64,000 bases of DNA from Opitutaceae bacterium (GTDB lineage Bacteria; Verrucomicrobiota; Verrucomicrobiia; Opitutales; Opitutaceae), in the NCBI GenBank assembly GCA_015075305.1, contig JABTUS010000001.1, positions 62,001 through 126,000 on the forward strand, given 5' to 3'. Both the position numbers and the translations under genes were made by a program. This document shows, piece after piece, positions 49,327-64,000 of the stretch; positions within the stretch are counted from its first letter, which is position 1, and every line of letters begins with the position of its first letter. Under the pieces are notes generated by a model, which worked only from the letters and a program-made list of their open reading frames with translations, ran no database searches and had not been told where the DNA came from.

Positions 49327-50757
49327 CTAAATTCCTGTGGGCAGCAGCGCCGCATCCTGCATGCCATGGATGATTTTCTTGTCCGGTGGACAAAAGGTCG
49401 CGAGTGCTCCGCTCAGTCGTGGCTCCCCGTCGACGACAAAATAATACGGACAGAGACGGAGCCTCCCCGATGAATTCAGCACCGCATGACCCGGCTCATT
49501 CGAGTAGATGGGATGCTGCACGCGTCGCGGCTTCATGTAATCCTGCAGGATGTGCAGGTGCGCGGGTGCATCGGCCATGGCGATTTCCAATCCCGCCTGC
49601 CACTCCTCCCGCGAGCAGTCGCTGCCGAGTATCACGCTCCTTGCTCCCCAGGCGGTTTCGTGAAATCCCGAAATCTTGATTATCAGATCGCGCTCCTTTT
49701 GCGAAGCACCTGCAAGCTGGCGCCAGTCTGTCAACGCCCTGCCGCCAACCATGGGACCCTCCAATACAGCGCCCGGTGGCAACGCCACGTCGTCCATGAC
49801 CCACGTGCGGGGTATCATTTTTCTCAGAAGGATGAGTGAGGCTCGTCCAAGATTTTCAGACCAGAAATCCTGCAGCCTGTGATGGTGAAAAAGCGCAAAC
49901 GACAGCTTTTCCTCCTGAAACGCCCGCATCGGCGGCACAATGGCAACCTCTCCCGCAGCCCATGCTTCGAGCATGTACTTCGCCGTGGGGATGTTTTCCA
50001 AGTCGAACAACTCGAAGAAGCGATAGATCACGTCGATCTTCTCGGGGTTGCCTTCCACATCAAAGCAGAGGGTTGTTCCAAGCGGAAAAACCTCATCCGG
50101 CTCCAGACAGAACACCCGCTTGCCCTGGAGTTGAAGCTGGTGGGCGAGCCATTCCATTTCAGGTCGATAGGTTCCCGCTTCATCCGAAACCACGATTGCG
50201 ATCAGTGGATTGCGAATTTCGGGCCGGCTGGATGCCATTGCAACGTGGAAATTCCGAACCATTGCGTCATCAGCACCAATGATGCCTGTACTCGCCGAAC
50301 CTGAAAGCGGAGCACCACCGGCGCCACCGCCGGAATAGAGCCGGTTCAAGAACCCGGTGAGACCGATTCCCCCAGGAACCGAATCGAGTTCGCTCATGAC
50401 GAATCCTTCGTCCGTCAGCAGCAGATCGGGACGAAGCACCGCCGGAAACACGCCCCGATTCGCGGGATCTCGTCCATACGCCACGATGCTGGCGGGTTTT
50501 CCCCGGTCCAGATACTCAGCCACCCATGGGGCGAGCAGCGACTTGTTGCGGAGCAGGTTCTTTCCCGTGGCCGAGCGGAGATAGAGCGTCTCGAGCGCCT
50601 GATGAAATTCCAGGCAGACGGTTCCAATTTCCTTGAGCTGCTCGAACTGCTCCGCGGTGATTTTCCATGCCGAGGGTGACAACTGCCAGGTCTTGGCCTC
50701 AAACAAGGGTTGGTTCGCAAGGGCCTGCCTTATCGTCTCGTAGGAAAATTCGGACAT
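49327..50757 (-). CDS. Unknown protein, possibly ATP-grasp-like
   Basis: 476 aa from MSEFSYETIRQAL. No firm family. Regions such as LLLTDEGFVMSELDSVPGGIGLTGFLN, KIDVIYRFFELFDLENIPTAKYM, VPPMRAFQEEKLSFALFHHHRLQDFW, and a late IIKISGFHETAWGARSVI...HLHILQDYMKPRRV suggest the strand-and-loop pattern of circularly permuted ATP-grasp peptide ligases, with Glu/Asp/Lys positions for Mg-ATP. This is a tentative fold reading. It is cytoplasmic, with no signal peptide. It lies upstream of aspS on the same strand and divergent from the serine hydrolase. Confidence 0.8.
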   Translation of the reverse strand: MSEFSYETIRQALANQPLFEAKTWQLSPSAWKITAEQFEQLKEIGTVCLEFHQALETLYLRSATGKNLLRNKSLLAPWVAEYLDRGKPASIVAYGRDPANRGVFPAVLRPDLLLTDEGFVMSELDSVPGGIGLTGFLNRLYSGGGAGGAPLSGSASTGIIGADDAMVRNFHVAMASSRPEIRNPLIAIVVSDEAGTYRPEMEWLAHQLQLQGKRVFCLEPDEVFPLGTTLCFDVEGNPEKIDVIYRFFELFDLENIPTAKYMLEAWAAGEVAIVPPMRAFQEEKLSFALFHHHRLQDFWSENLGRASLILLRKMIPRTWVMDDVALPPGAVLEGPMVGGRALTDWRQLAGASQKERDLIIKISGFHETAWGARSVILGSDCSREEWQAGLEIAMADAPAHLHILQDYMKPRRVQHPIYSNEPGHAVLNSSGRLRLCPYYFVVDGEPRLSGALATFCPPDKKIIHGMQDAALLPTGI

Positions 50758-50936
50758 TGTGAGTTGTTGGCTTTGGCACGAATGCCGCAAAATGGTACAA
50801 GCCAGCGAAACCAGCACGTAACAGCAAATCGTTCAATCGAAACCCGGTCGACCCGACTTGATATCCATAACCACGCGGTGCTTTCGTAGTCGATCGCCCA
50901 GGGGGGCCCCGCATTCGAAATCCACGCGTCAGCTCA

Positions 50937-52594: not shown

Positions 52595-54475
52595 CTACCA
52601 GCGAAAATTCACTCCCGTTGAAACCTGCCTCCGACCTGCCGGCACGGCGGGCACTTCCTCGAAATTCTCATTCCACAGGTTGTCAACCTGCACGCCAAGG
52701 GTCAGCCCTCGCATCACAGGCGGCGAGTAGTAGGCGCCAATCAAGCCGATTATCGCTTCATCGCCTCCCTCCCGACGCAGCGCGTTGTCCTCCTGAATCC
52801 GGAACTCATGATCCGCGCGAAGCTCCCATCCACGACCGAGCCGCAATGTGGCGGAAGCCGTCAACCGGTGTTTCGGAAAATTCAGCGCGTAGAAACTGGC
52901 GTCAACCGTCGCCGAACCGTAGTCTGATTCCCGGTGGAAAAAGGTGTAGCCCAGTGCGAGGTCCAGCCTCTGAACCTGCCGGCGCAGCACAAGTTCGACG
53001 CCCGACGTTTTCAGGTCCACAGGACTGGCGGTTCGCGCCGTCACTCCCCGGCGATAGGTCCAGTCAACCAATCCATCATCCCAGCGATGGAAGACGGCCG
53101 CCGACGCCGCCCAACCCGCCCATATGGCGCTGCCGCCGACCTCGAGATTCCGAGCTGCTTCGCGCCCGAGATCGGGGTTCCCCCGAAAGAGTCCCGCTCC
53201 GCTCGCTGAATTCAGCGCCGTGTATGTCGGGGTCTGGGTTGTCCTTGAGAAACTGGCGTACAGGCGATTCCACCCATCCGTCGCCAATGGTCTCCGGATC
53301 GAAATTTCAGCAAGCGGAGAAAGCGACGATGCATCGCGATTCGTGTCGTCGTAGGACAACCCCGCCTTCGCTGTGAATTTTCGGTCCGCATTGAGCTGCC
53401 AGGAGCGTTCGGGGGCCGCCACGAGTTTCAGGTGATCCCGCTGGCGAAATCGACCGGCGGTGAGCGAGGTGGACTTCAGGGCATCTCGGATGACCGTTCC
53501 TGTTCCATTCCAGACGATGTCGCCGACAGTCCTGCGCAGTTCCGCGCTGGCTCCATACACCCAGGTCGTATGCTGAAACGGATGGACCGTTCCCAACGGC
53601 AGCAGCCGGTTGAAGGCATAGTCATCCTTGTTGCGACGATAGTAGCCCCCCGCTTCGAAAAAATCCCCGTTCTGCCCGCTGATGCGATGGTTCAGCATGA
53701 GAAGCACCGTCTGAAGCCTGTCGGTTTCCAGGGAATTGAATGGTGTGTAGAGGTTTCGCCAGCCGAAAAACTTCGCCTGGTATCCTGCATAGAGGTCCGT
53801 CTGGCTTCGCGGCCCGGACAGCTGAATCCGCGTTCCGACACGCGAAAAGTCATGATCCCCGTACGGTCGCGTGCCCTGCGAACTCGATGCCCCCCACTGC
53901 GCGTCAGCTCCGACGCTGTAACGCCCATCCCCAATTTCGCGACGACTGCCTTGATAGAACTCGGCCCGCCAAAGTGAAAACTCTCCGGCACCCACCGAAA
54001 TGTATCCGTGATCCGAAATCGGGCGCCATGAATACGCCACAGTTCCAGCACCCGCATTCCATCCACGCAAGGCGTTGTCGTACCCGGTCAATATCTCCGG
54101 GGCTCCAAGCATTGCAGGTGCAATGGGAATCTCGGCAAAATAGTGTCCGGTCTGTGGATCATGGATCGATGAAGCGCCCACCTTGAAACCGGTCTGCTCA
54201 AAAATGCCACCGCGAATCGCCACGTCGGATTGCCCCTCGGCCATGTTCCGAGCCAGCACATCGACGAGCGGCTCAAACCTGAGCGCAGTGACCGGAGTGG
54301 GAAATGTTGAACCCGGTTCCCAATTGGCCACATGAAGAGTGCCAACGGCGACCGCCGGCAACTCGAACACGGGATTCGATGCCTCGCCCGCGTGGGCGTG
54401 CATGATGCCGAATGCAAGAATCAGGCCGAATTCAAAAAGCACCCCTGCGCGCCGCGCAAACTTCACTCCGTTCAT
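52595..54475 (-). CDS. TonB-dependent outer-membrane receptor
   Basis: About 626 aa from the ATG at 54475; a TTG 12 codons earlier (54511) is an alternative. A signal peptide ends near MHAHAGEAS. The plug is seen in PLVDVLARNMAEGQSDVAIRGGIFEQTGFKVGASSIHDPQTGHYF, a BtuB/FhuA-like plug without a clear TonB box. The C-terminal barrel ends in ..QVSTGVNFRW, with the terminal aromatic needed for assembly. It has no transport neighbours. An AT-rich palindrome covers its likely promoter, so it is probably repressed by a ligand-sensing regulator. Cargo unknown. Confidence 0.88.
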   Translation of the reverse strand: MNGVKFARRAGVLFEFGLILAFGIMHAHAGEASNPVFELPAVAVGTLHVANWEPGSTFPTPVTALRFEPLVDVLARNMAEGQSDVAIRGGIFEQTGFKVGASSIHDPQTGHYFAEIPIAPAMLGAPEILTGYDNALRGWNAGAGTVAYSWRPISDHGYISVGAGEFSLWRAEFYQGSRREIGDGRYSVGADAQWGASSSQGTRPYGDHDFSRVGTRIQLSGPRSQTDLYAGYQAKFFGWRNLYTPFNSLETDRLQTVLLMLNHRISGQNGDFFEAGGYYRRNKDDYAFNRLLPLGTVHPFQHTTWVYGASAELRRTVGDIVWNGTGTVIRDALKSTSLTAGRFRQRDHLKLVAAPERSWQLNADRKFTAKAGLSYDDTNRDASSLSPLAEISIRRPLATDGWNRLYASFSRTTQTPTYTALNSASGAGLFRGNPDLGREAARNLEVGGSAIWAGWAASAAVFHRWDDGLVDWTYRRGVTARTASPVDLKTSGVELVLRRQVQRLDLALGYTFFHRESDYGSATVDASFYALNFPKHRLTASATLRLGRGWELRADHEFRIQEDNALRREGGDEAIIGLIGAYYSPPVMRGLTLGVQVDNLWNENFEEVPAVPAGRRQVSTGVNFRW

Positions 54476-54514
54476 TTCTTGAATCTGCTCAAACGCATTA
54501 TGGAAAGCCAAGCC

Positions 54515-54549
54515 TATTGTTAATCATAATTACAATCTGATTAACAATA
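54515..54549. promoter_or_regulatory. Palindromic operator over the TonB-receptor promoter
   Basis: Perfect 12-bp inverted repeat TATTGTTAATCA (54515-54526) / TGATTAACAATA (54538-54549) with an 11-base spacer, in an otherwise GC-rich region. On the minus strand a good -10, TATGAT, reads across its inner edge (54523-54528), about 48 bases before the ATG at 54475. This placement suits a repressor site. It does not match a Fur, Zur or NikR consensus that I can recall. Confidence 0.55.
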
Positions 54550-54780
54550 TGTTCGACATGATGTTGAGCCGAAGCATCCTGAGGCAGCTGCAGGTTTGCT
54601 GCAGGCCGCCACCTCGGATTGCGGACGAATCTGCAGTCGAACGCCCACGGAATCGGAAACTGATCGGGTGTCCGGCCCCATGGACGAAGCGCAACGGTCT
54701 ACGAATCAACCGTTAATCAATCCATGCATCATCTGGAAGTGTTCGAAGCACGAAGAGAAACCGGGCTTCCGCCTTGCCAT

Positions 54781-62619: not shown

Positions 62620-62962
62620 TGCGCGCATCACGCCTGACGCACGTCCCATGCGCAAGCGCGCAGTGAGCAAAGGTACAACTGACAGAAATCGACCTACCCG
62701 CCTGCTTGGTCGGGTCCATAGCCATTTTTTCTGCTTGGGTAAATTACTGGCATCCATGGGCTCCGCTTTTCCAACATTCCGAGAGATGCCGATTGCATTC
62801 CTACAGCTGACTGCTCTGCAGTCGCCATAACGGGAGTCATCGAAAACGCAAAAGGCACCGACCAGCCCCAGTTTCTGCCAGGCTACGGCCGCGGCCTCTA
62901 CGCGGGCCTTTCATATGCCTATTGAAGCCGGCCCTTGACGACTGTGCAATAATGCCACCGAC
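62620..62962. other. 343-base divergent gap gcvT / His-rich gene
   Basis: No protein or RNA gene supported. It must hold the promoters of gcvT (minus) and of the His-rich gene (plus). TTGACG at 62935-62940 is too near the ATG at 62963 to be a normal -35 unless the transcript is leaderless. A partly symmetric GTGCAAT-A-ATGCCAC around 62944-62958 was considered as a Zur-type site and is weak. Confidence 0.5.
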
Positions 62963-63322
62963 ATGACGGCTGTGAGAAATCCGGCATTGAGCACACTTGG
63001 TCGAATCCTCTCGACCAGCTGTGCGCTGCTGGTTGTTGCGCTGGCCCTCATGTCGGCGAGCCCGGCGCTTCACGACTGGGCGCACAACATCTCCGGCGAC
63101 CATGCCACGCACGATCACGCAGCCGGGCAAGACAGTTCCGATCACGGCTGCGTGGTGGTTTGGTTTGGAGCCGGGCTCACCGTGGCGAATCCCACGGTCG
63201 CGCCGGATCGGCCTCCGACGTGCAACCTCGCGGAGCCAGTCCACCGAAGCGCACTTGCGCACCCTCGCCGAGTGTCCGGATTCCTGCCACAGGGCCGCGC
63301 GCCGCCCAAGAGTCTGAGTTGA
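62963..63322 (+). CDS. Small His-rich exported protein beside a ZnuD-like receptor
   Basis: 119 aa. A signal or membrane helix spans about 15-35 (STSCALLVVALALMSASPA). Right after it come HDWAHNISGDHATHDHAAGQ and DHGCVVVWF, with eight His plus a Cys in a short span, a likely metal-binding segment facing the periplasm. The rest is low-complexity. It resembles small proteins commonly found beside zinc or copper TonB receptors, but I cannot name a family with certainty. The receptor gene starts 94 bases later, with two hairpins between. Confidence 0.75.
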   Translation: MTAVRNPALSTLGRILSTSCALLVVALALMSASPALHDWAHNISGDHATHDHAAGQDSSDHGCVVVWFGAGLTVANPTVAPDRPPTCNLAEPVHRSALAHPRRVSGFLPQGRAPPKSLS

Positions 63323-63330
63323 ATGGTGGT

Positions 63331-63355
63331 CCGAGACGCCGCAATGGCGTCCCGG
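63331..63355 (+). other. Hairpin 1 in the His-rich/TonB receptor gap
   Basis: 10-position stem CCGAGACGCC / GGCGTCCCGG with one A-C mismatch and a GCAAT loop, followed by TTTGG. A terminator-like shape with a very short U-run; it may cause partial termination so that the small protein is made in excess. Confidence 0.4.
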
Positions 63356-63375
63356 TTTGGACATCAATGCCTGCA

Positions 63376-63398
63376 ATGCGCGCACTGAAAGCGCGCGT
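63376..63398 (+). other. Hairpin 2 in the His-rich/TonB receptor gap
   Basis: GCGCGC / GCGCGC core stem (63378-63383 with 63391-63396), extended by a G-T and an A-T pair, 7-base loop ACTGAAA. It ends 19 bases before the receptor ATG and could occlude its ribosome binding region. Confidence 0.35.
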
Positions 63399-63416
63399 GC
63401 ATCAACCGGATTCAGC

Positions 63417-64000
63417 ATGAATGTTGTACGATTTTCGTTTTCCGCCTGCATCGCAACCACGACCCTTTCCGCGCAAACCGCACACTCCCGGCAACACTCC
63501 GACGAGGAGCCCCTGCACCTCGACCGATTTGTCATCTCGACCTCGCCCTACGCACGATCCCAGGACGAAATCGCCCAGTCTGTTTCAGTCCTCGATGGCA
63601 ACAGACTGGCGCAGCGCCAGGCCACATCGCTGGGCGAACTGCTGGCGGGTGAAACCGGCGTGGCATCCTCCTATTTCGGCCCGGGAGCGAGCCGGCCGAT
63701 CGTGCGGGGCATTGGAGGCGATCGCCTGAAGGTTCTGGAAAACGGCGTCGGCACGATTGACGCATCCATCACAAGTCCGGACCACGCGGTCTCCCTCGAT
63801 CCGCTCCTGATTGAGAAGGTCGAGGTCGTTCGCGGCCCCGCCGCACTGCTCTATGGGGGCAATGCGATAGCCGGTGTCGTGAACACCATCACGCACCGCA
63901 TCCATGAAACCAGACCGGACAAACCCCTCGAAGGTCGCCTCGAGGTCCGCTCGCAATCCGTCAACGATGAGAAGAGCGCCGGACTGCTGCTTGAAGGCGC
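63417..64000 (+). CDS. ZnuD-like TonB-dependent receptor (3' partial)
   Basis: The first 194 codons are in the window; the gene runs off the right edge. A signal-like N-terminus (MNVVRFSFSACIATTTLSAQ) is followed by HLDRFVISTSPYARSQDEIAQ, near the TonB-box region. The plug has SLGELLAGETGVASSYFGPGASRPIVRGIGGDRLKVLENG and SPDHAVSLDPLLIEKVEVVRGPAALLYGG, close in plan to the zinc receptor ZnuD of Neisseria (LGDALG..PGVSS, GASAPVIRG, SPDHA, EILRGPVTLLY). A zinc role fits the adjacent His-rich protein. This is strong on family and moderate on cargo. Confidence 0.9.
   Translation, partial: MNVVRFSFSACIATTTLSAQTAHSRQHSDEEPLHLDRFVISTSPYARSQDEIAQSVSVLDGNRLAQRQATSLGELLAGETGVASSYFGPGASRPIVRGIGGDRLKVLENGVGTIDASITSPDHAVSLDPLLIEKVEVVRGPAALLYGGNAIAGVVNTITHRIHETRPDKPLEGRLEVRSQSVNDEKSAGLLLEG

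Follow-up and report, generated by a model that had tools for sequence, protein, structure and literature searches.

Analysis of the window, the whole 64,000-nucleotide stretch of DNA presented above, identified an inverted repeat upstream of a TonB-dependent receptor gene. To judge from its sequence and conservation, this repeat is very probably a site at which BirA, the biotin repressor, would bind. We propose with considerable confidence that it would be the operator through which charged BirA shuts down a TonB-dependent importer of biotin or its conjugates, and that this importer would replace biotin synthesis. The receptor gene (52595-54475, minus strand) is proposed to encode the importer on the basis of its open reading frame, the fold of its product and a distribution opposed to that of bioB. 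The case was built on comparison between genomes and not on copies of the element within the organism's own genome.

The repeat is perfect over 12/12 positions, with arms TATTGTTAATCA (54515-54526) and TGATTAACAATA (54538-54549, the exact reverse complement of the first) separated by an 11-bp spacer. The proposed operator core (54517-54547) reads TTGTTAA-N17-TTAACAA, with half-sites at 54517-54523 and 54541-54547, and the palindrome ends 39 bp upstream of the receptor ATG (54475). G+C content at 54480-54560 is 33%, compared with 59% for the whole window. Repeats matching at 12/12 positions with spacers of up to 30 bp occurred three times in the window, against a mean of 0.05 and a maximum of one in 40 dinucleotide shuffles. 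The sequence-only reading had described an operator-like palindrome tied to the TonB receptor, and this description is upheld both by the perfect arms and by retention of the element before receptor orthologues. It had also expected other copies before transport genes, and on this point the organism's own genome gave no support: the exact palindrome occurs there once, with no further copy at fewer than two mismatches for N17 spacing and no further exact copy for N17-N19 (at N18 and N19 the search covered exact copies only). The next-best sites, with two mismatches, are at chance level, numbering 25 against 51 in the reversed control and, in another search, 35 against 9. A BirA regulon with one target would explain the single copy.

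Conservation of the element was examined across the receptor family, which comprises 420 related stretches in public genomes. Eighty named receptor loci were kept, all with Verrucomicrobiota titles and mostly Opitutaceae or Opitutae/Opitutia. The best upstream match to TTGTWAA-N16-19-TTWACAA had no more than three mismatches in 70/80 loci and no more than two in 48/80. Shuffled sequences reached these levels in 16/400 and 2/400 cases, respectively, a comparison made too favourable by the shared ancestry of the 80 loci, and in-gene stretches gave 0/80. The reference point for distances was the position where the protein match begins rather than a mapped start codon. The arms were spaced by N18 in 38 of 69 receptor sites, by N17 in 19 and by N19 in 12. 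For the 38 receptor genes in a set of 57 relatives, sites with 0, 1, 2, 3, 4 and 5 mismatches numbered 12, 8, 6, 8, 3 and 1. Across all 57 genomes the exact pattern was found 25 times, compared with seven in the reversed control: 12 sites preceded receptors, four preceded bioA and nine lay elsewhere (two each in G016 and G044, one each in G037, G039, G045, G047 and G050), the last number being approximately the control level.

A third half-site near typA had been taken, together with the two arms, as evidence that three AT-rich copies were unlikely by chance and that looping or shared control joined the two genes. The third copy is indeed present, as a lone GTTAATCA at 54712-54719 on the plus strand, but its number is near that expected. 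The 8-mer occurs three times in the window, a count reached in 4/100 shuffles (mean 0.53); two of the three copies are the palindrome arms, leaving one further copy, close to expectation. This half-site looks like chance and was judged to lie outside the system. No typA was found in any of the relatives' receptor loci (0/80, of which 64 had 5 kb and 71 had more than 2 kb of upstream sequence), with the receptor query, as positive control, matching 80/80. There is therefore no support for looping, nor for control shared with typA, and the proposal was rejected.

The same element was found before biotin genes. The four exact bioA sites lie approximately 1.4-1.6 kb upstream of bioB, directly before bioA, and NCBIfam confirmed bioA in the three of these loci that were submitted. 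Gene order in one genome (G020) is bioA-bioB-bioD-bioF, with D and F below their cut-offs. Of 30 genomes with bioB that were inspected, 22 had a site of up to two mismatches immediately ahead of bioA or, where bioB stands alone, of bioB. In one of the searches behind this count, 2.7% of shuffled 310-bp windows reached that level; search windows differed, one set being 2.7 kb and more lenient. One further genome (G155) had a site with three mismatches, and no bio-gene site was found in the other seven of the 30 (G042, G047, G048, G071, G118, G166 and G092).

Presence of the site was then compared with the DNA-binding domain of the ligase. The organism's own biotin ligase (L082, 331 aa) contains HTH_11 (1.9e-13), BPL and BPL_C domains and is 30% identical to E. 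coli BirA. A model of the HTH region matched 65/73 ligase loci. Eight genomes had a ligase lacking the HTH (G040, G041, G042, G048, G051, G071, G118 and G166), and Pfam concurred for the seven submitted (all except G041). Sites with up to two mismatches preceded 47/58 targets in genomes with the HTH, versus 0/6 in those without (p = 1.7e-4). The six HTH-less targets represent four families, and the p values ignore shared ancestry. This count leaves out G043, where the HTH is degenerate, and G019, G050 and G092, where no ligase was scored; placing G043 in the HTH group gave 47/59 (p = 2.2e-4). There were two exceptions, a receptor (G014) and a bioA (G047), with an intact HTH and no site at up to three mismatches. 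The G043 ligase (L052) is full length, its HTH region scoring 55 bits with no Pfam HTH, and the receptor of that genome has no site. Repressor function is possibly in decay there.

These patterns bear on two other explanations of the element. A metal regulon had been implied earlier; the palindrome would then be an operator for Fur, Zur, NikR or a similar regulator, and the receptor would take up a metal chelate. Iron chelates are frequent TonB receptor cargo, and the receptor has weak similarity to haem receptors in NCBIfam and one weak sequence match in the PDB, to the haem receptor PhuR. However, the element also stands ahead of biotin-synthesis genes and is absent where the biotin ligase has no HTH. 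NikR (PF08753), the one of these regulators searched for, had no match in the organism's own genome (controls positive 5/14). The suggestion is not supported, and a metal-responsive operator appears highly improbable.

The second explanation is that the element is mainly a promoter rather than a repressor site, TTGTTA serving as a -35-like hexamer, followed by a weakly matching -10 and, close to the start, a CTTG. The sequence CTTG (often CTTGTTTT or CTTGGC) lies 2-5 bp past the second arm in 42/69 sites (loci L159-L238), and the window has its own at 54510-54507 on the minus strand. It is perhaps a transcription start region or leader element, and its position is what speaks for a promoter. 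As to the -10 previously assigned to the receptor, the letters TATGAT do occur inside the element on the minus strand, but a sigma-70 consensus scan of that strand found no promoter. Dyad symmetry with arms spaced at N17-N19, and loss of the element along with the BirA HTH, further argue for a repressor site, and we give very little credence to a role mainly as promoter.

The receptor and bioB are distributed in an almost mutually exclusive manner. Among the 57 relatives, the receptor (called at E ≤ 1e-59, two matches near 5e-4 not being counted) was found in 38 and bioB over the cut-off in 11, with no genome having both (Fisher p = 4e-7). In 145 genomes of the order, with at least 90% completeness requested, the receptor was found in 71, bioB in 49 and both in one (Fisher p = 4e-18); neither p value is corrected for ancestry. 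The single genome with both (G117) has a perfect site before the receptor and another before bioB. Both the receptor state and the bioB state were found inside each of families f1, f2, f11, f20 and f24. No bioB scored above the cut-off in the genome of the organism itself, and uptake in place of synthesis is therefore proposed; bioB served throughout as the marker of synthesis, and in this genome it was the only one of bioA, bioB, bioD and bioF searched for. Neither receptor nor bioB was found in 26/145 genomes of the order.

The product of the receptor gene matched no Pfam family, and its NCBIfam similarity was far below the cut-off. The Pfam barrel model matched one of two receptor orthologues tested (6.7e-15). 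An AlphaFold2 model built from 39 sequences (pLDDT 84.1, pTM 0.85) gave as its best Foldseek matches YncD/PqqU, an importer of PQQ, and BtuB (E ~1e-25, TM ~0.68), and aligned with TonB receptors over 580-700 columns, strands not being counted singly. On this model, the predicted product has the TonB-receptor fold, a plug with a barrel of the 22-strand type. Two other open reading frames of the window, both on the minus strand (49327-50817, 496 aa, and 62837-63535, 232 aa), had no Pfam family at E 0.001.

Transport across the inner membrane would need a partner. BioY had no match in 56/57 genomes and was dropped as a candidate; BioP was therefore tested. BioP homologues were found in 30/38 receptor genomes and 2/11 bioB genomes, and in six genomes, drawn from five families (G016, G027, G037, G046, G053 and G056), the homologue lies at most 100 bp from the receptor. 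In G016 the adjoining gene encodes a protein sharing 41% identity with E. coli BioP/YigM over 256 aa; the gene faces the receptor and has its own site with one mismatch (L152:4777-4807), so that both membrane steps may be under one control there. The homologue in the organism's own genome (38% identity to BioP over 271 aa) is on another contig, with no recognisable site upstream. A site before the BioP-like gene was rejected as a rule, being present at up to two mismatches in only 2/29 loci (G016 and G014; a 30th, with no upstream sequence, was left out). Paralogues of this superfamily are common, and we treat the BioP evidence as supportive only.

The same evidence bears on the possibility that BirA binds the element but the receptor carries some other biotin-linked compound, for example a fatty-acid-related one or a biotin precursor. 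BirA regulons may take in genes unrelated to biotin: a proteobacterial survey gives bio genes as the targets of BirA, with the addition of fatty-acid genes in Desulfovibrionales (PMC5343134). The near-exclusion of receptor and bioB and the adjoining BioP homologue point instead to biotin itself. A precursor would be a poor cargo in particular, as dethiobiotin is of no use without BioB. Another biotin-linked cargo therefore seems unlikely.

Regulation of a biotin importer by BirA is thus the reading we prefer. By analogy with the known BirA mechanism, BirA would bind the element and biotin would bring about repression. When biotin is plentiful, BirA carrying biotinyl-AMP would dimerise and occupy both half-sites, switching off the receptor gene. 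When biotin is scarce, BirA would be uncharged or busy with biotin transfer, and off the DNA, so that receptor is made. The receptor would then move biotin or a conjugate across the outer membrane using TonB energy, and a BioP/YigM-type permease would carry out the inner-membrane step. We infer both biotin as the cargo and TonB dependence from context. For the order as a whole, it is likely that a dedicated TonB-dependent transporter under BirA control, with biotin or its conjugates as cargo, has replaced synthesis repeatedly, with the operator standing on the bio genes or on the transporter according to state.

If so, a function could be assigned to the receptor family of 420 related stretches, and it would explain how many members of the order (Opitutales-like Verrucomicrobiota) live without bioB. 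Dependence on biotin would also gain a marker that can be read from genomes, and active uptake of biotin across the outer membrane would be directly testable. Biotin is not known as one of the standard textbook cargoes for TonB receptors. The BirA operator and the TonB receptor are each of a known kind; a BirA-controlled TonB biotin receptor, combining the two, was described in none of the literature matches listed, a weak negative with most subscription papers outside its scope. Two reports on predicted biotin auxotrophs of other groups state that a biotin transporter could not be identified in them (PMC5317091, PMC10008586).

Among known systems, the receptor is most like the TonB-dependent cofactor importers PqqU/YncD and BtuB in its modelled fold. 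Identity to these proteins is only 13-17%, membership of either subfamily is not implied, and no evidence was found for PQQ or cobalamin as cargo of the receptor. The likeness to the BioP/YigM permease of E. coli lies in the homologue in the organism's own genome and in those beside the receptor in six relatives; the difference is that the own-genome copy is unlinked to the receptor contig and to any recognisable site.

The element itself resembles the BirA biotin operator of E. coli bioAB and of the BirA regulons of Proteobacteria. Both are inverted repeats of TTGTWAA half-sites, an HTH-bearing BirA is encoded in the organism's own genome too, and the element precedes bio genes in relatives. 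The published BirA signal, TTGTAAACC-[N14/15]-GGTTTACAA, is equivalent to TTGTAAA-N18/19-TTTACAA (PMC545781), and the E. coli bioAB control sequence reads TTGTAAA-N20-TTTACAA. The window, at N17, is thus 1 bp short of the published range and 3 bp short of E. coli, and this is the principal point of tension in the BirA reading. The target differs as well, being here an outer-membrane receptor and not a bio gene. Since the bio genes of the order also show N17, this spacing is read as a lineage variant, and the claim put forward is that the predicted element works like a BirA operator.
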